Below are positions 33,828 through 42,727 of a DNA stretch of 64,000 bases, piece after piece; position 1 is the stretch's first letter, and the number at the start of each line of letters is the position of its first letter. The stretch is from Marispirochaeta aestuarii (lineage in GTDB: Bacteria; Spirochaetota; Spirochaetia; JC444; Marispirochaetaceae). The notes below the pieces were generated by a model. The model was not told where the DNA came from and made no database searches. It worked only from the letters and a program-made list of their open reading frames with translations. Made by a program: the position numbers and the translations under genes. The stretch is from NCBI RefSeq assembly GCF_002087085.1, contig NZ_MWQY01000007.1:1-64000 (forward strand), written 5' to 3'.

Positions 33828-34571
33828 ATGAGAAACGCAACCCCCGTGCTTCTGATCCTCAGTCTGATCCTCGCGGCCCTCAGCTCATGCAGCGTCGCAA
33901 GCTCCATTCAGTTGGAGGACGCTGCAGCAGGGAACGTCAATACACGCATAACCATGGATCCCCTCCTGCGTGAGTATCTGGGCGATCTGGCGGAAGTGCA
34001 GGGGGCCGATGTGGACGAATCCACCAGTTTCTTTGATACCGCCGCCCTGACAGCGGGATTCGCCACTGCCGACGGGATTTCCCTTACCGGACTGATCCTT
34101 GAAGCCCCGGAGACGCTGCGGATTCTCGCCAGCTTCGCCGACATTCAGCATATTTTTCCCGGTAATATCGATACCCGGAGCAACCCGGTTTTCTCCTTCC
34201 GGCGTTCCGGAAATACCGGAACCTTGAATATCCGCATAGATTCCCGTAATGTGGCCTCCATTCTGGAGATGATCCCCATGGGGAGCGACCCCGTTTCCCA
34301 AACGGTAACCGGAGTTTTTCAGAACGGGGGCGACGAAGAGGAGCTCAAGGAGATGCTGATCTGGACCTTTGAGGAGTACGCCCCGGCGGATACCATAGAA
34401 AGAATGATTGATTCCGCCGCCATTCTTCTCCGCATACAGGTACCCGGACGGATTGAAAACATCGAGGGAGGAATACGACATTCGGCGGACACGGCAGAGT
34501 TCCGGATTCCCCTTCTGCGCTTCATGAGCCTGAACCCTCCCCTTGAGTTCGCGGTCAGCTATTCACTGTAG
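33828..34571 (+). CDS. Lipoprotein of unknown function
   Basis: A 247-residue lipoprotein; lipobox AALSSC (Cys21). The mature part alternates predicted strands and helices (DLAEVQGADVDESTSFFDTA, GNTGTLNIRIDSRN) and ends with a strand FAVSYSL. No domain is recognised. Located just after the chemotaxis receptor; it could be a binding-protein partner but nothing shows that. The last 9 bases overlap the convergent HAD gene. Confidence 0.8.
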   Translation: MRNATPVLLILSLILAALSSCSVASSIQLEDAAAGNVNTRITMDPLLREYLGDLAEVQGADVDESTSFFDTAALTAGFATADGISLTGLILEAPETLRILASFADIQHIFPGNIDTRSNPVFSFRRSGNTGTLNIRIDSRNVASILEMIPMGSDPVSQTVTGVFQNGGDEEELKEMLIWTFEEYAPADTIERMIDSAAILLRIQVPGRIENIEGGIRHSADTAEFRIPLLRFMSLNPPLEFAVSYSL

Positions 34572-35228
34572 ATCAAGAAACCGGAGGATTCTCCTGCGTT
34601 CCTTCCGGGAAAAACCGGTAATCTTCAGGTCCGGCTCGAAGGCTGGAGTATTCCAAGATTCCGCTGTTTCAAGACCAATACAGAAAAGCCCCGCACGTCT
34701 GGCGGATTCGATCCCCGAGGGGGAGTCCTCAATCGCCGCTGCACTGCGGAAGGGTACCCCCAGGAGTTCCGTTGCCCTCCGATAGGGTTCAGGATCCGGC
34801 TTGCACCTGTCCACCTCGTCACCGGCAACCCGCACAGGAAAGTATAACGAAAAGCCGGCCGTCTCCAGCACATGATCGACATAGGCCCTGGCCGAGGATG
34901 ACGCTACTGCCGTAAGTATCCCCAGGGAACGAAGCTCCACCAGCAGTTCAGAGACTCCATCCCGGGGAAGAAGGGCCCGGGAAGAGAGTCTTTCCAGGGT
35001 CCGTGCAGCCTGAAGCTTCGCCATGTTCTTTGCCCCGGGGTGCCCGGTCAGCTGGTTTTCACTGATCAGAGTTTCCCACATCTCTTCATCGGACACCCCG
35101 ATAAAGCGGCGCGTCTCTTCCCGGGAAAGGGATATTCCCAGATCCCCGGCCAGGGCAACCAGGGTTTCGGCATGAAAGGGTTCGGAATCCACCAGGACCC
35201 CGTCCAGATCGAAGATAACAGCCTTCAA
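34563..35228 (-). CDS. HAD-family sugar-phosphate phosphatase/beta-phosphoglucomutase-like
   Basis: A 221-residue HAD hydrolase with motif I FDLDGVLVDSEPFH, motif II VASSSARAYVDHVL, motif III Lys in RCKPDPEPYRRATELLG and motif IV AAIEDSPSGIESARRAG. The cap domain with RRFIG after motif I resembles beta-phosphoglucomutases and sugar-alcohol phosphatases. Its ATG overlaps the mtlD stop as ATGA, so it is the last gene of the mannitol operon; removing excess mannitol-1-phosphate or fructose-6-phosphate is a reasonable role but inferred. Confidence 0.9.
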   Translation of the reverse strand: MKAVIFDLDGVLVDSEPFHAETLVALAGDLGISLSREETRRFIGVSDEEMWETLISENQLTGHPGAKNMAKLQAARTLERLSSRALLPRDGVSELLVELRSLGILTAVASSSARAYVDHVLETAGFSLYFPVRVAGDEVDRCKPDPEPYRRATELLGVPFRSAAAIEDSPSGIESARRAGLFCIGLETAESWNTPAFEPDLKITGFSRKERRRILRFLDLQ

Positions 35229-36562
35229 GGAAGAGAGCTCTCCCGTTTCGTCGGAGGCGTTACCGGCGTCAGGCGGACCACCGGTTTCCCCCGGCTGGCC
35301 ACAATGATCTCCCGTCCCGCCATGGCTTCATCCACGAGCTGGGCGAAGTTATCCCTGGCCTCCTTCATTGAGACGATTCTGATCCACTGCCGGACGTAAT
35401 TCCGCACAAGGTCTTCGACTCCCCGGTCCTCGTAGGCGTTTTCAATGGCCGTCAGCACATCCGCATCCTTCAGGGAGGTTACGCGGGGAATCACCTCCCT
35501 GATATCGCTGATTTCAAGCAGCTCCCGCAGGCGTTCTGCCTGGGGATCATCCTCGTTACGGAAATAGAGGGCCGCAGCAATACCGATCAGCAGGTTCTGG
35601 TTCGGGAAACCGTACTCTATGGTTCCCCGCAGGGGCTTGATCAGTCGATCGTCAAATCCGAGCTTCCGCAGCGGCTGCCTTCCGACCCGCTGGACATCGT
35701 CCTTGAGCCAGGGATTTTCAAAACGCCGCAGGATTTTTTCGATGTAGCCCCTGTGTATGTCCCGGTCAAATCCATACCGTCGCACCAGGACCTCGCCGCT
35801 CTCTTCCATGGCCCCCCGGACCACCTGCCGGACCTGTTCATCCCGTATACTCTGGTCTATTGTCCGGTGGCCGTACAGGGAACCGAGATAGGCCGCGATG
35901 GCATGGCCGGTGTTCAGGGTAAAGAGTTTTCGTTCCACGAAGGCAGTCAGAGTGTCGGTCAGCTGCATCCCCTCGATCTCGGGGATGCTGCCGGCGAAGC
36001 CTCGCCGGTCGACAATCCATTCGCTGAACTCCTCCACCCGCACCCGAAGGATGTCTCCGGACTTCTCCATGGGAGGCACTATCCTGTCTACAGCGGAATC
36101 GGGAAATCCCACATGCTCCTTGATGAAGCTTTTTACATCCTTGTCCAGTGAGCCTTCCACCAGTTCCTTCAATCTGCTGGATGCATTAATCATGTTCTCA
36201 CAGGCGATAATATTGAGTGCTCCGGAGACCCCCTTCTGCATACGGTGTTTGAGCCCCGCCGCAATAGGGGGGGCAATATGTTCAAGAACGGCAGGCCCTA
36301 CGGCGGTAGTCACAATCTCCGCCTCGGCGATTGCATCGAGGAGCAGTTGATCACCGGGATAACAGCCGCTTACCGGGGTGATGGTTTCTTCCCTGCGGGT
36401 TTCTCCGACTATTTCAACAGTATACTCTCCCCTTTTCTGCAGTTCGGGAATTATTGAATCGCTTATATCCACAAACAGAACCCGGTATCCTGAGCGGGAC
36501 AGGAGGGCACCGATAAAACCTCTCCCGATATTTCCCGCCCCAAACTGTACCGCCAGTTTCAT
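35225..36562 (-). CDS. mtlD: Mannitol-1-phosphate 5-dehydrogenase fused to a Phd/VapB-like antitoxin tail
   Basis: It oxidises mannitol 1-phosphate to fructose 6-phosphate with NAD. The start at 36562 gives the family N-terminus (AVQFGAGNIGRGFIGALLSR) after AAGGAAAAGGAA; an in-frame ATG at 36580 is also usable. Catalytic-domain motifs include NIIACENMINASSRLKELV, GFPDSAVDRIVPP, FVERKLFTLNTGHAIAAYLG and GTIEYGFPN. MtlD usually ends near residue 380. Here the frame runs on to 445 residues, and the extra segment reads MKEARDNFAQLVDEAMAGRE then IIVASRGKPVVRLTPV, an almost textbook Phd/YefM/VapB antitoxin motif. No stop separates the two and no toxin gene follows. Fifth-to-sixth gene of the mannitol operon; the HAD start overlaps its stop. 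Confidence 0.9.
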   Translation of the reverse strand: MKLAVQFGAGNIGRGFIGALLSRSGYRVLFVDISDSIIPELQKRGEYTVEIVGETRREETITPVSGCYPGDQLLLDAIAEAEIVTTAVGPAVLEHIAPPIAAGLKHRMQKGVSGALNIIACENMINASSRLKELVEGSLDKDVKSFIKEHVGFPDSAVDRIVPPMEKSGDILRVRVEEFSEWIVDRRGFAGSIPEIEGMQLTDTLTAFVERKLFTLNTGHAIAAYLGSLYGHRTIDQSIRDEQVRQVVRGAMEESGEVLVRRYGFDRDIHRGYIEKILRRFENPWLKDDVQRVGRQPLRKLGFDDRLIKPLRGTIEYGFPNQNLLIGIAAALYFRNEDDPQAERLRELLEISDIREVIPRVTSLKDADVLTAIENAYEDRGVEDLVRNYVRQWIRIVSMKEARDNFAQLVDEAMAGREIIVASRGKPVVRLTPVTPPTKRESSLP

Positions 36563-36617: not shown

Positions 36618-38675
36618 TCAGCCGAATTTCTGGCTGAACAGGGTCAGGAGCCGTCCCTGGATATCCCGCCTGCTTCCCCTGGCGAGAACATCAGCAAAGT
36701 CCCCAAAGTCCGTAAGGGCTATGACTATCTCCGAAAGTGCGTGGGTCTGCACCGGGGAAGCGGTCAGCGGAGCCGCCAGGACAAGTACCGTCGGTTCCAT
36801 GGGGACTGTCTGGATGACCCCGGCCCGGGGTTCCGGTACCCCCTCGGTACGGCAATGAAGAATGCGGACATTCAATTCTTCAAAAACAAGGCTTCCGTAG
36901 GATTCCCTGCGTTCAAAATCCCTTCTCAGGATCTCGGTATTACAGTCTCCCCGTTCGGAAAGAGCCAGGACCGCCTGGGACAGAAGATCCGAGCGGGCCT
37001 GGCGTTTCTCGACAAAAAATCCGCTTATCACCGACATGATTACCGGCAGAGACAGATCCTGAGCCTGTCCGCCCAGGGTCACCACATCCCGCTTTCGCTC
37101 CGGTCGTTTCGGCTCATCGTTTTCCGGCCGGACTCCAGGTCTCTCCAGATCCGCCGCAGCCTCCCGGAGCTGGGCCCGAATGTCCTCCGGCGAAGAATCG
37201 ACCCGGATGATCAGATGCCGGCACCCCCGGATTTTTACAGGAAACGAGGAGATCACAAGATCATACTCCCCGGGAACCTGGTTCTCTTCAAAATCGGGAT
37301 CCCACTGGGAATCTATAAGCACTCCCCGGGGCAGAACATCCCGTACAAGGGCGGCAATATAATTCGACATACCCAGACCTTCCAGGCAAAGTATCCTGAC
37401 CCTGAGCTCCGGTGCATGTCTGGACTGAAGAACCTCTATATGGGCCCCCAGGGCGAGAGATGCCTCCTGTATCTCCCTGCGAACCTTGGACGGCGAGATA
37501 TCCGGCAAGCGATCGTCCATTTCCGCCATGAACTGGGTCACCAGCGAGGCGGCCTCCGGGGAGTCCTCCAGCCCGGGATAGGGATGCAGGCCGGTTTCAC
37601 GCCATCCCGGGATCCCCAGATCGATCCGTCGGGCCGCTGCGGAGAGGGTCATGCGCAGATAGTTCAGGAGCAGCCGGTCATCATGGAGCCAGACCCGGCG
37701 GGACCCTTCCAGGCTGCCGAGGGTATGCTCGATGATGGCATTCACCGGTCCCCACAGATCTCCCAGATATTCCTCCACGGATTCCACTGAAGCGGCGGCC
37801 GTTTCCAGGGAAGCCAGAACCCGGGCCAGCAGAAGAACTTCCTCATTGGTATCGGAATCGGAGGATAAAAGTTCCCAGGCATCGACGGTCATCATCCTGC
37901 GGGCGGCCTGGATATATATTTCCGGAATGTTCAAACCCGAGGGACTGAGGCGGCGAAGGTTTCCGGTAAGAGGTATACGACGGGCAAGAAGAAACAGATA
38001 GGAGTAAAGAACCCCGGAGGACGAGGGAGAAAGCCTGTACCCGAGGACATCTTCAGCTTCGCGTATGATCGTAAAAAAACGATCCCGGTAGTCGCGGATT
38101 CCAATGAGCCGGATCATCCGCTCCTCACCGCTTCCGCTGTCTCCATCGTTCTCGCTCCCGTATAACAGATATACCGGTACGAAGTTTGGAAAAGCGGACA
38201 GGAACAGCATCCGTATATCCGTCTCATCCGCCAGCATTCGCACCCCCGTGCCCTTCTGCTTCTCGATAAAAACGGAATCCGGCAGGATCTCCTCCAGGGA
38301 TGAAATGTCGCTGCTTACCGTCGAGTCGCTGACAAAGAGGACATGGGCAATTTCGGAGAGTTTTATCCAGTCTGCGGCAAGAATCATGTAGAGCAGGATC
38401 AGAAGTGGTCGCTGTCCGCTTTCCGCAACAGAGGGTCCCCGCATATGTCCGGCGCTTTCCATAAGCCGCGTCGGTACCGGATCAATGAGCCGTACCCCGA
38501 ATCCCCGCCGCCGCTCCATTCGCACGCCCCGAAGGCTCAGGCTGCGTTCCAGGACCTCCAGGTCCCGATGGATCGTCCTGACCCCCGCTCCGGTCGCTTC
38601 GGCGATCTGCTCAACGGTTGTGTAGTTTGAGCTGCCCGCGAGGAGTTTCAGCACTTCCAGGAGTCGGGAGGTCAT
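36618..38675 (-). CDS. mtlR: BglG/MtlR-type PTS-regulated transcriptional regulator
   Basis: A 685-residue regulator. Order: N-terminal DeoR-like helix-turn-helix (TTVEQIAEATGAGVRTIHRD), second Mga-like helix-turn-helix (LSEIAHVLFVSDSTVSSD), two PRD-type domains, an EIIB-like domain (RVRILCLEGLGMSNYIAALV, Cys kept) and a C-terminal EIIA-like domain (SGFFVEKRQARSDLLSQAVL, His in VRILHCRTEG). In classical MtlR activators, PTS phosphorylation of histidines in PRD2, EIIB and EIIA sets activity. In both PRDs here the expected H-L position appears as Tyr-Leu (LYSYLFLLARRI and LLNYLRMTLSAAARRI). It is a DNA-binding activator rather than an RNA antiterminator. It lies 3 bases after ptsI. Symbol by context. 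Confidence 0.85.
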   Translation of the reverse strand: MTSRLLEVLKLLAGSSNYTTVEQIAEATGAGVRTIHRDLEVLERSLSLRGVRMERRRGFGVRLIDPVPTRLMESAGHMRGPSVAESGQRPLLILLYMILAADWIKLSEIAHVLFVSDSTVSSDISSLEEILPDSVFIEKQKGTGVRMLADETDIRMLFLSAFPNFVPVYLLYGSENDGDSGSGEERMIRLIGIRDYRDRFFTIIREAEDVLGYRLSPSSSGVLYSYLFLLARRIPLTGNLRRLSPSGLNIPEIYIQAARRMMTVDAWELLSSDSDTNEEVLLLARVLASLETAAASVESVEEYLGDLWGPVNAIIEHTLGSLEGSRRVWLHDDRLLLNYLRMTLSAAARRIDLGIPGWRETGLHPYPGLEDSPEAASLVTQFMAEMDDRLPDISPSKVRREIQEASLALGAHIEVLQSRHAPELRVRILCLEGLGMSNYIAALVRDVLPRGVLIDSQWDPDFEENQVPGEYDLVISSFPVKIRGCRHLIIRVDSSPEDIRAQLREAAADLERPGVRPENDEPKRPERKRDVVTLGGQAQDLSLPVIMSVISGFFVEKRQARSDLLSQAVLALSERGDCNTEILRRDFERRESYGSLVFEELNVRILHCRTEGVPEPRAGVIQTVPMEPTVLVLAAPLTASPVQTHALSEIVIALTDFGDFADVLARGSRRDIQGRLLTLFSQKFG

Positions 38676-38678
38676 TGC

Positions 38679-40427
38679 CTATTCCGCCTTCCAGGGGACC
38701 GGATCCCCGGAGATCAGTTTCTTCGCATGCATTCTGGCTTCGTCGGCATCGGCGGCAGTCATGAGGCGGGAAGCAAGCTCGTCCAGAGTCGAAGCCCGGG
38801 TACCTGCAAGGCAGGCCTTGAGCTCCGGTATGGCATTGATCCCCGCGCTGATCTCATCCACCCCGAGGGCCAGGAGAGCCAGGGCTGAATCAGGATGGCT
38901 CGCCATATCCCCGCACACCCCCACGTGGATGCCCGCCTTATGGGCCCCCTCCACAATCCGGGAGATCGCTGCGAGAACCGCCGGATGGAATTCCTGATAA
39001 TAGGCTGAGACCCTGGGGTTTCCCCGATCCACGGTCAGAAGATACTGGACCAGGTCGTTGGTGCCGATGCTGATAAAATCCGCCTTTTCGGCAAGTCGGT
39101 CGACAATCATCACCGAAGCCGGGGTTTCCACCATGATTCCCACGGGCAGAGCTGAAGCTCCTGCCGGGACCAGGGAACGGACGGCGTCTATCTCCGAGGC
39201 GGAAATGACCATGGGTATCATCGCTTTGATCTGGTGGCCCTCTTCGAATACACGGGCAATGGCCTGTATCTGGATCTTCAGCTGGGTCTCCCGGGCAAGG
39301 AGATACCGGATACCCCGCTCCCCCAGGAAGGGATTGTCCTCCGGAGGGTGAGGAGCATAGGGCAGAGGCTTATCCGCACCGCAGTCCAGGAGACGGACGA
39401 TGACAGGGGCAGGAGCCATGGCCCTGCAGACTGCCCGGTACTCATCCGCCTGCTGGTCCAGCCCGGGAAAATCGGAAAAACGCATAAAGAGAAACTCCGT
39501 CCGAAAGAGTCCTATCCCCGCGGCTCCGAAAGAGGCGGCCTGTTCAGCTTCCGCGACTCCTCCGACATTGGCCATAAGGGCGTAGGGCTTTCCGTCCGCA
39601 AGTTCAGGAGCCGCCATTTTCGACCAGGTCCTGCGCTTTTCCTCCTCTTTCCGGGCAGTCTCTTTACGCTTCCGCGCCTCGCTGAGCTTTTTGTGGTCGA
39701 GATCGGTATCCACCGTGCCGGCATCACCGTCCACCAGGACCTGCTGACCGCTGCGAACCGCGGCAATCAGACCTTCCACACCGGTAACGCAGGGGATTGA
39801 GAGGGATCGGGCAAGAATGGCCGCATGGCTGGTTCTGCCGCCTTTTTCCGTAATGATTGCCGCCACCTGTTCGGTATCCAGGCGTGCCGTAGCCGAAGGG
39901 GTAAGCTCTTCGGCCACAATGACGCTGTTCTCCGGCAGTTCCGCAGGATCGCTGATGGACCCGTAGTAGATGGCTTCCGCAAGGCGGCGCCCGATGTCCC
40001 GCAGATCTCCCGCCCGCTGCCTGAAGTAATCCGACTCCAGCTCCTCGAACTCCCGGGCAGTCTCCTCGACAAAATCTATCACCGCCCGTTCCGCTATGGC
40101 CTCACGCTCCATGATGGCCTCTTCCACTGCTTCGGCCATATCTTCTCCGGTAAGAATCTCCAGATGACCTTCGAAGATTTCCGCCTCATCCTCTCCCAGC
40201 TTCTCCCGGATGCGCTCGATCAGGGCAGAGTAGTAGACCGCGGCCACCTTAATGCCCCGGCCGAAGCGTTCCATCTCGCTTTCGCTGCTCCGCCTGGTGT
40301 GAGACCGGGTTCCGCCGTCATTGCGGCTGGAGCTGGGTCCGGTACGTCCCAGGGGCACCTCCCGTTCATGGAGCAGGTAGACCGTACCGGCGCCTATCCC
40401 CGATGAGGAGGGAATTCCCGTCAGCAT
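38679..40427 (-). CDS. ptsI: Phosphoenolpyruvate-protein phosphotransferase (PTS enzyme I)
   Basis: It autophosphorylates from PEP and passes the phosphate to HPr. 582 residues, normal. The active histidine is in TEKGGRTSHAAILARSLSIP; the PEP-binding domain shows GIGLFRTEFLFM, GERGIRYLL, MVETPASVMIVDRLA, ISIGTNDLVQYLLTVDRGNP and the catalytic Cys in GVCGDMA. The N-terminus is unusual in having a Ser/Arg-rich insertion (residues ~25-50: TGPSSSRNDGGTRSH...) next to the HPr-binding domain. ATG at 40427 overlaps the ptsH stop by 7 bases. Confidence 0.96.
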   Translation of the reverse strand: MLTGIPSSSGIGAGTVYLLHEREVPLGRTGPSSSRNDGGTRSHTRRSSESEMERFGRGIKVAAVYYSALIERIREKLGEDEAEIFEGHLEILTGEDMAEAVEEAIMEREAIAERAVIDFVEETAREFEELESDYFRQRAGDLRDIGRRLAEAIYYGSISDPAELPENSVIVAEELTPSATARLDTEQVAAIITEKGGRTSHAAILARSLSIPCVTGVEGLIAAVRSGQQVLVDGDAGTVDTDLDHKKLSEARKRKETARKEEEKRRTWSKMAAPELADGKPYALMANVGGVAEAEQAASFGAAGIGLFRTEFLFMRFSDFPGLDQQADEYRAVCRAMAPAPVIVRLLDCGADKPLPYAPHPPEDNPFLGERGIRYLLARETQLKIQIQAIARVFEEGHQIKAMIPMVISASEIDAVRSLVPAGASALPVGIMVETPASVMIVDRLAEKADFISIGTNDLVQYLLTVDRGNPRVSAYYQEFHPAVLAAISRIVEGAHKAGIHVGVCGDMASHPDSALALLALGVDEISAGINAIPELKACLAGTRASTLDELASRLMTAADADEARMHAKKLISGDPVPWKAE

Positions 40428-40690
40428 TGGGGAGCACCCTCGGGCTGCAGAAGACCTGTCAGGGCTTCAAAAGCCTCCTTTTCGTCCGGCCCCTCGCAGA
40501 TCAGGGTTACCTCATCACCCTGGACAATACCCAGCTTCATGAGCTTGACAAGACTCTTGCCCGGGGCCTCCTTTCCGTTGCGTTTCAGAACAACCTGGGA
40601 CTCGAATTTCCTGACCTCTTTTACAAAACGATTCGCAGGCCGGGTATGAAGTCCCTCTTCATTGGTTACCACCAGGTTCCCTTTAAGCAT
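40421..40690 (-). CDS. ptsH: Phosphocarrier protein HPr
   Basis: An 89-residue HPr. The long open frame begins farther upstream, but ATG 40690 is preceded by AAGGAGG and gives the family N-terminus. The phosphoacceptor His is in EEGLHTRPANRFVKEV; the regulatory Ser is in PGKSLVKLMKLGI, so HPr-kinase control is possible. Sits between the EIIA gene and ptsI in the mannitol operon. Confidence 0.95.
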   Translation of the reverse strand: MLKGNLVVTNEEGLHTRPANRFVKEVRKFESQVVLKRNGKEAPGKSLVKLMKLGIVQGDEVTLICEGPDEKEAFEALTGLLQPEGAPQC

Positions 40691-40712: not shown

Positions 40713-41198
40713 TCAATCGAATTCCCCGGCTTCGAAGGCAGCTGCAAAATTCTGCAGTACAGAGACAGCTTCGTCGTTGTTTCGGGCGTTCCGAAGGGCG
40801 TACACATACTTTTCGCTGTCGCAGAGTTCGGCGATCTGGGGCACCGCCTCCTGGTTGTGCTCTTCCCGGTTGGCTGCACCGGCGAAGATCAGCACATCCA
40901 CCGGATCATTCTCTTCATCCCCGAACTCAACCGGCGAAGCCAGGGTAACCAGAGCATATCCCGTTTTCAGGACCCCGTTTTCCGGCTTGGCATGGGGCAT
41001 TGCAATGCCGGGAGCGACAATAAAATAGGGACCGATTTCCCTGTGGTTGCTGATCATCGTCTGGACGTAGCGGTCATCGATCAACCCTGCGTCGATCATC
41101 ATCCGGCCGCCGATTCTGACAGCTTCCTCCCAGTCACGTGCCGTACAACCGACCGCGATAGTCTTACTTTCAATCAATCTGTCCACAAAACAGGCCAT
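40713..41198 (-). CDS. PTS mannitol/fructose-type EIIA component
   Basis: A 161-residue PTS_EIIA_2 protein; the phosphohistidine is in VAPGIAMPHAKPENG. Helix DWEEAVRIGGRMMIDAGLID is typical of the mannitol/ascorbate class. It carries phosphate from HPr to the EIIB domain of the transporter. It is a stand-alone subunit, unlike the fused CBA form of enteric MtlA. Located 140 bases behind the EIICB gene, beyond a hairpin at 41276-41312. Confidence 0.92.
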   Translation of the reverse strand: MACFVDRLIESKTIAVGCTARDWEEAVRIGGRMMIDAGLIDDRYVQTMISNHREIGPYFIVAPGIAMPHAKPENGVLKTGYALVTLASPVEFGDEENDPVDVLIFAGAANREEHNQEAVPQIAELCDSEKYVYALRNARNNDEAVSVLQNFAAAFEAGEFD

Positions 41199-41338: not shown

Positions 41339-42727
41339 TTATACATCCACCGGGGTCTTGCCCGATAGTTCCGCCACAATCTCATCATACTCCGGGGCAT
41401 TCACAAAGTTGGTAATGCTGAAGTGCCTGGCGTTGGGTGCCGACTGGCGGGCACGCTCGGTCAGGTTGACGTGGGAGATAACCAGATCCGCATCCGTCGG
41501 AACTTCATCCACCGGCGCATGCTCCACGTGTACATTCAGCCCTGCGGCCTTGAGTTTTTTCTTCAGCCGGTTTGCCCCCATGGCGCTGGATCCCATTCCG
41601 GCGTCACAGGCAAATACGATCTTGGATACCCTGCCGAGTCCCTTGAAATCCTGGGTCTGCTTCTTTGCTGCCTCGAGTTTGTCACCGGCTTCACGGTTCA
41701 TCCTGTCGAAGCGACGGACAAAGGGCATGGCAACAATAAAGCTCACCGCGGTGGAGACGATAACGGCCATCAGGATTCCCAGGTGGCTGCCTTTCGCCGC
41801 AACGGCCATCAGGGCAAAGATGGACCCTGGCGAGGGGGTCGCGAAGGCTCCGGTGCTCAGAAGTACATTGGTCAGGACCCCGGAGAATCCACCTGCAATG
41901 ACCGCAAGAATAAGAACAGGATTCATCAGTACATAGGGGAAATAGATTTCGTGGATTCCGCCGAAGAAGTGGATGATGATGGCACCGGGAGTCGTGTCCC
42001 GTACGGTACCCTTGGTAAAGACGAGGTAAGCCAGGAGAATACCCAGGCCCGGACCGGGATTGGTTTCGATCAGGAAGAGAATCGACTTGCCGGTTTCCTG
42101 AACCTGCTGAACGCCCAGGGGACCAAAAACTCCGTGGTTGATCGCATTGTTCAGAAAAAGAATCTTACCCGGTTCCACCAGAATGGATGCCAGAGGCAGC
42201 AGACGCATGGAAATAATACTGTCGACACCGGCCATCAGGAAGTGGGAAAGACCATTGATTACCGGACCGATAACAATGAGACCCAGCAGGGAGAGAAGTC
42301 CCCCCATAATTCCGGCGGAAAAGTTATTGATGAGCATCTCGAAACCGACGGGAATGACGGGTTCAACCACTTCGTCCCATTTCTTGATCGCCCAGCCGCC
42401 CAGGGGTCCCATCATCATGGCGCCGAGGAACATGGGAACGTCCGCGCCGACAATTACGCCCATGGTTGCAATGACACCTACAACACCGCCCCGGACTCCC
42501 CAGACCAGTTTTCCACCGGTGTAGGCGATGAGCATCGGCAACATGTAGGTAATCATCGGTCCCACCAGGGCGGCCAGTTTCTCGCTGGGAAGCCAGCCGG
42601 TGGGAATGAAAAGTGCGGTAATGAGAGCCCATGCGAGGAAGGCCCCGATATTGGGCATTACCATACCGCTTAAGAATCTGCCGAACCTCTGAATATGGGC
42701 CCGGGCACCTAACGCAGTACCTTGCAT
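41339..42727 (-). CDS. mtlA: PTS mannitol transporter EIICB
   Basis: A 462-residue inner-membrane permease, residues ~1-340 EIIC and ~375-462 EIIB. EIIC has the family motif FFGGIHEIYFPYVLM and ILFLNNAINHGVFGPLG (both in the mannitol class). EIIB has the phospho-cysteine in IVFACDAGMGSSAMGANRLK. It imports mannitol as mannitol 1-phosphate. There is no C-terminal EIIA; that is separate. First gene of the operon; SD AAAAAAGGAG before ATG. Confidence 0.95.
   Translation of the reverse strand: MQGTALGARAHIQRFGRFLSGMVMPNIGAFLAWALITALFIPTGWLPSEKLAALVGPMITYMLPMLIAYTGGKLVWGVRGGVVGVIATMGVIVGADVPMFLGAMMMGPLGGWAIKKWDEVVEPVIPVGFEMLINNFSAGIMGGLLSLLGLIVIGPVINGLSHFLMAGVDSIISMRLLPLASILVEPGKILFLNNAINHGVFGPLGVQQVQETGKSILFLIETNPGPGLGILLAYLVFTKGTVRDTTPGAIIIHFFGGIHEIYFPYVLMNPVLILAVIAGGFSGVLTNVLLSTGAFATPSPGSIFALMAVAAKGSHLGILMAVIVSTAVSFIVAMPFVRRFDRMNREAGDKLEAAKKQTQDFKGLGRVSKIVFACDAGMGSSAMGANRLKKKLKAAGLNVHVEHAPVDEVPTDADLVISHVNLTERARQSAPNARHFSITNFVNAPEYDEIVAELSGKTPVDV

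Follow-up and report, generated by a model that had tools for sequence, protein, structure and literature searches.

A mannitol-1-phosphate 5-dehydrogenase of marine spirochaetes with a C-terminal domain of the Phd/YefM antitoxin family

The mannitol-1-phosphate 5-dehydrogenase (MtlD) encoded in a 64,000-nucleotide stretch of Marispirochaeta aestuarii DNA (contig NZ_MWQY01000007.1, positions 1 to 64,000; hereafter the window) carries a C-terminal tail that is confirmed to contain a Phd/YefM domain homologous to the VapB/Phd antitoxins. The protein is apparently an undescribed MtlD variant, as searches of the open-licence literature turned up no fusion of Phd to MtlD or to another enzyme, which is weak evidence of absence. 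The gene lies in a minus-strand frame (36613-35225) with a likely start at the ATG at 36562, giving a product of 445 residues; MtlD and tail together span 35225-36562, the frame remaining open from the MtlD core through MKEARDNFAQLVDEAMAGRE...IIVASRGKPVVRLTPV to the stop codon at 35225-35227. Residues 1-376 (35435..36562, minus strand) constitute the enzyme core, which scores 518.7 bits with NF002646 (cut-off 368) and covers profile positions 3-379 of 382. The best solved-structure match of the predicted model is Shigella MtlD (3h2z; TM 0.95 by target). The active site of SaM1PDH, formed by N119, K200, N205 and H208 (PMC6623548), is matched by N123, K212, N217 and H220, which are invariant in alignment A3. 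Thus, the window protein shares its enzyme core, active-site residues and mannitol PTS operon context with MtlD (NF002646; PDB 3h2z, 5jnm), from which it differs by approximately 66 extra C-terminal residues that comprise a helical linker followed by a domain of Phd fold. In E. coli-type, Fusobacterial and other spirochaete MtlDs the C-terminus lies near the motif ENAYE, beyond which these residues extend.

The fusion was found, with the same junction, in five genomes: that of the window (G000), G002 (84% identity to the window fusion), Candidatus Marispirochaeta associata JC231 (68%), a Spirochaetales MAG (L013; 63%) and Candidatus Thalassospirochaeta sargassi (G378, locus L014; 65%). The tail comprises three parts. 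The linker, residues 377-393 (YEDRGVEDLVRNYVRQW; 35384..35434, minus strand), is a predicted extension of the last MtlD helix; every one of the five fusions has it, with invariant R-G, V and W, whereas it is missing from the aligned unfused MtlDs. The latter stop before the linker, which rules out an ordinary C-terminal helix of this MtlD clade. The Phd/YefM-fold domain, residues 394-434 (35261..35383, minus strand), is supported by PF02604 and TIGR01552, AlphaFold, Foldseek/VIA and dN/dS, and the short variable end, residues 435-445 (35228..35260, minus strand), by pLDDT, dN/dS and alignment with stand-alone antitoxins.

The first-pass annotation had placed the DNA-binding and dimerisation part of Phd/YefM antitoxins after the normal end of MtlD and proposed a profile search of residues ~385-445 and a comparison with the MtlDs of relatives. 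Both bear it out: the same tail recurs in five genomes where unfused MtlDs end earlier, and the antitoxin domain exceeds the cut-offs of both Pfam and NCBIfam. For PF02604 the E-value is 9.3e-10 with the 69-residue tail, at 38.6 bits, and 1.8e-8 with the full-length protein, the bit scores ranging from 34.4 to 38.6 over the searches (gathering score 29.8), and TIGR01552 (phd_fam) scores 37.9 bits against a cut-off of 20.8. Across the 4.2 Mb genome, PF02604 at E<=0.001 matches nothing but the tail, which lies over the cut-off. A chance profile match is ruled out by these scores and the genome-wide search. In other genomes PF02604 reaches 37.0 bits in G001 and 34.8 in G002, both above 29.8, and 21.4 in G378, which is below. 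The match on the tail spans profile positions 2-42 of 74 only. A free tail produced from an internal start is unlikely by inspection, because the Met is located inside strand 1 and is placed differently in L013 and L014.

The full-length AlphaFold model (mean pLDDT 89.6) displays a last core helix that runs to residue 389, its segment 367-389 joining the end of the core and the linker, followed by a strand-helix-helix-strand-strand arrangement. Since a fold search with the full-length model was swamped by MtlD structures, the tail was modelled alone, and the same beta-alpha-alpha-beta-beta order was obtained with pLDDT of about 80-93. The nearest solved structure to the tail is the VapB46 N-terminal domain (6jqy; VIA Z 6.0, rmsd 1.9, 43 aligned), followed by the Phd N-terminal domain (Z 5.4, rmsd 3.4, 46 aligned) and then by YefM and its relatives. 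Foldseek E-values for the tail are weak, as expected for a domain of ~40 residues, and nearly every top-ranked row belongs to the Phd/YefM/VapB family. The tail domain is thus predicted to adopt the beta-alpha-alpha-beta-beta N-terminal antitoxin fold. Residues 439-445 have pLDDT under 50, and residues 435-445, in the place of the toxin-binding region of antitoxins, are probably disordered.

Phylogenetic placement shows a single origin of the fused MtlDs: the fused MtlD cores form one clade (support 97/97) and a single change, a gain, is required on the core tree. No further fused MtlD was detected in the phylum sample of 393 genomes, where none of the PF02604 matches listed lies in a frame longer than 171 residues. 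An mtlD of this kind is missing from the other sampled Thalassospirochaeta genomes, so the mtlD locus is patchy. Fusions on plasmids were considered and rejected, the best matches ending at residue 380. Five fused sequences were available in all. Between G000 and G002, dN/dS is 0.012 in the domain, 0.072 in the MtlD core and 0.51 in the final 11 residues, ratios that are rough because synonymous sites are near saturation; the dN values, 0.022, 0.101 and 0.527, respectively, show the same contrast independently of saturation. The Phd domain is under strong purifying selection and the final residues are not. The capture of antitoxin sequence by stop loss, as proposed in the first-pass annotation, therefore stands only in part: homology and predicted fold uphold the capture, whereas a recent stop loss is contradicted by one event shared by five genomes (63-84% identity) and by purifying selection. 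The common junction similarly rules out an assembly error. Antitoxin genes, which are mobile, abound in the phylum, and the tail could in principle be a neutral remnant left when translation ran by accident into an old antitoxin gene; strong selection on the domain, unlike on the final residues, and retention by five genomes belonging to at least two families largely refute this explanation, which we consider very improbable.

The closest stand-alone relatives of the tail, found in other spirochaetes, are VapB-type antitoxins encoded ahead of PIN toxin genes. A profile built from eleven stand-alone antitoxins, mostly of the VapB type, gives 54 bits for the window tail, 43 for L013 and 36 for L014, outscoring PF02604 for the window and for L014. 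As a rule, toxin neutralisation in known antitoxins is the task of the C-terminal half, and DNA binding and dimerisation are those of the N-terminal half (PMC4803016). The closest stand-alone relatives continue after the fold with a further C-terminal stretch of ~30 residues (FFEPLP.EEL.AWE in several, for example), which alignment reveals to be absent from all five fusions; the tail, ending before it, lacks the toxin-neutralising half. Thus, the tail resembles the VapB-type antitoxins of PHD-PIN systems (PF02604, TIGR01552; 6jqy) in N-terminal sequence and predicted fold, but these are separate genes with a toxin-binding C-terminus and an adjacent toxin, all three of which are wanting here: the tail is in frame with mtlD and is followed by the HAD or other genes. 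Similarly, the fold and the DNA-binding/dimerisation half are common to the tail and to Phd (phage P1)/YefM, whereas in the fusions the basic DNA-contact positions are unconserved and the C-terminal half is absent.

Homology to antitoxins leaves the reading that the tail is a working antitoxin for a toxin encoded elsewhere, and the first-pass annotation had pointed to a search for an unpaired toxin. No orphan was found among the Fic, YoeB, ParE and PIN families or on inspection of what lies next to the PIN and ParE genes. The genome holds nine PIN/ParE toxins (eight PIN, one ParE), each preceded by its own small gene, which by eye mostly resembles the ribbon-helix-helix type, so that the tail is not needed to restrain them; there is no YoeB-type toxin in the genome, and its two Fic matches both lie in long proteins. 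With the toxin-binding region missing in all five fusions as well, a working antitoxin is a far-fetched reading. The MtlD tail is not an antitoxin now, because its toxin-binding C-terminus is lost, no toxin follows it and the nine PIN/ParE toxins found have upstream small genes of their own. The eight PIN toxins lie on G000 C46, C3, C4, C38, C12, C15 and C2. Sister genomes hold several Phd-type antitoxins, the window genome seemingly none but the MtlD tail. In G003, the only genome of the same family outside the genus, which has no mtlD, a Phd-PIN pair at about 1600-2100 of L124 (contig 120) is apparently decayed, with a stop within the antitoxin match and a short PIN frame. In L127 (1-1200; G336 contig 6), SPPSRGRGLK / NPRPREGGD repeats beside a VapBC pair look like a translated CRISPR array.

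The fused gene belongs to a mannitol PTS operon whose genes, all on the minus strand, encode in order EIIBC (41339..42727; PTS_EIIC and PTS_IIB), EIIA (40713..41198; PTS_EIIA_2), HPr (40421..40690; PTS-HPr 3.7e-27, start inferred at MLKGNLV), enzyme I (38679..40427; PEP-utilisers N, mobile and C domains), an MtlR-like transcription regulator (36618..38675; HTH_11 and HTH_Mga), MtlD-Phd and a phosphatase-like HAD-family hydrolase (34563..35228; PF13419 1.1e-31). With its own HPr and enzyme I, this operon represents a self-contained PTS. The core of the gene order is kept in relatives with the fusion; in L014 the regulator gene comes after mtlD and its sequence is distant from that of the window regulator. 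The first-pass annotation was right that no toxin lies downstream of mtlD, the next gene being the HAD one, and that the HAD start overlaps the mtlD stop, but the start codon is TTG (TTGA overlap) rather than ATG. Its view that the HAD gene occupies the place of a toxin start is not sustained: the gene follows mtlD in the window, G002 and JC231 (in JC231 directly and TTG-started) and is absent after mtlD in L013 and L014, so that, with two of the five fusions lacking it there, it is no meaningful toxin substitute. The same absence weakens the HAD gene as a functional partner of the tail. Adjoining the HAD gene, also in G002 (L003), is a plus-strand ORF of 247 residues (33828-34571) with a lipoprotein-like N-terminus, for which no Pfam match was obtained at E<=0.001.

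The proposed origin is a single fusion event in marine spirochaetes that joined the N-terminal half of a VapB/Phd-type antitoxin, the half that folds, dimerises and binds DNA, to the C-terminus of an otherwise ordinary MtlD, the toxin-neutralising half having been lost or never included; the domain would now pair (or dock) MtlD molecules and so tune how stable or active the mannitol enzyme is. To our knowledge, MtlD is monomeric elsewhere. We put the chances at about even that the Phd domain pairs or docks MtlD molecules as a co-opted dimerisation module. Pairing is the most likely role because the fold dimerises in known antitoxins, the Phd N-terminal domain being described as a dimerisation domain (PMC4803016), and because the basic DNA-contact residues are unconserved across the fusions. 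The core signature of the fold is kept in all five. YefM cannot bind its operator without R10 and R31 (PMC4803016). The residues at these two positions are R/S in the window and G002, K/R in JC231, E/R in L013 and E/K in L014; position 10, where 21 of the 22 stand-alone homologues have a basic residue, is thus occupied by Glu in two of the five fusions, and JC231 alone is basic at both. Such a reversal of charge, seen in two lineages, speaks against DNA binding as the function that the fused clade has conserved. In Marispirochaeta DNA binding by the tail may persist, since the window tail keeps Arg at position 10 and has a further Arg one residue past position 31. That the tail regulates something, as first suggested, fits its conservation.

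PutA is a proline-catabolic enzyme with a fused antitoxin-like ribbon-helix-helix domain that regulates proline catabolism. Like PutA, MtlD-Phd might be a trigger enzyme whose tail binds DNA, so that MtlD, depending on its catalytic state, would repress or tune the mtl operon to which it belongs. The retained part is the DNA-binding half of the antitoxin, Arg occupies position 10 in the window and G002 with both positions basic in JC231, the gene lies in the mtl operon beside a regulator gene, and solo antitoxin homologues have been proposed as regulators of diverse operons (PMC2701414); against this, Glu replaces in L013 and L014 the Arg that YefM needs (PMC4803016), the three Marispirochaeta genomes share no palindrome upstream of mtlA and contain no TGTACA there, the operon already has its own regulator, and it is the N-terminus of the domain that is attached to the enzyme. 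We regard a trigger enzyme as possible but rather unlikely, and slightly less probable still is the fuller proposal that MtlD-Phd binds operator DNA via the captured domain and adjusts the mannitol genes by catalytic or redox state. A co-opted dimerisation (or docking) module is favoured over a PutA-like DNA-binding switch. Of the inverted repeats in the window, the strongest resembles the terminator of the upstream gene ribH. The Phd fold might instead bind another protein, such as the MtlR-like regulator or a PTS protein from its own operon, and couple flux to regulation. The operon layout kept along with the fusion and the fused-specific invariants on the linker and domain surfaces, e.g. 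W393, are in line with such docking, but the displaced and divergent L014 regulator speaks against it, and we hold this explanation to be unlikely. Pairing of MtlD molecules remains the preferred reading.

Both PutA and the window MtlD combine a central metabolic enzyme with a small domain of a dimeric, DNA-binding type, possibly self-regulating. In contrast, the PutA domain is an N-terminal ribbon-helix-helix with proven DNA binding, and that of MtlD is a C-terminal Phd fold for which binding is hypothetical. The bifunctional Acinetobacter MtlD (NF046057; PDB 7ocn) is also an MtlD with an added domain, there a HAD phosphatase; in the window the HAD protein is encoded by a separate, adjoining gene and the added domain is Phd-like. 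Non-antitoxin uses for solo antitoxin homologues were foreseen by Makarova and colleagues (PMC2701414). MtlD-Phd is a clear case of a part of an addiction module being recruited into a core metabolic enzyme after loss of its toxin-binding half, and being kept by selection. Should the domain bind DNA, a self-regulating enzyme of the PutA kind would have been reached a second time, by an independent route; should it only dimerise, it would show how antitoxin folds are recycled as assembly modules.
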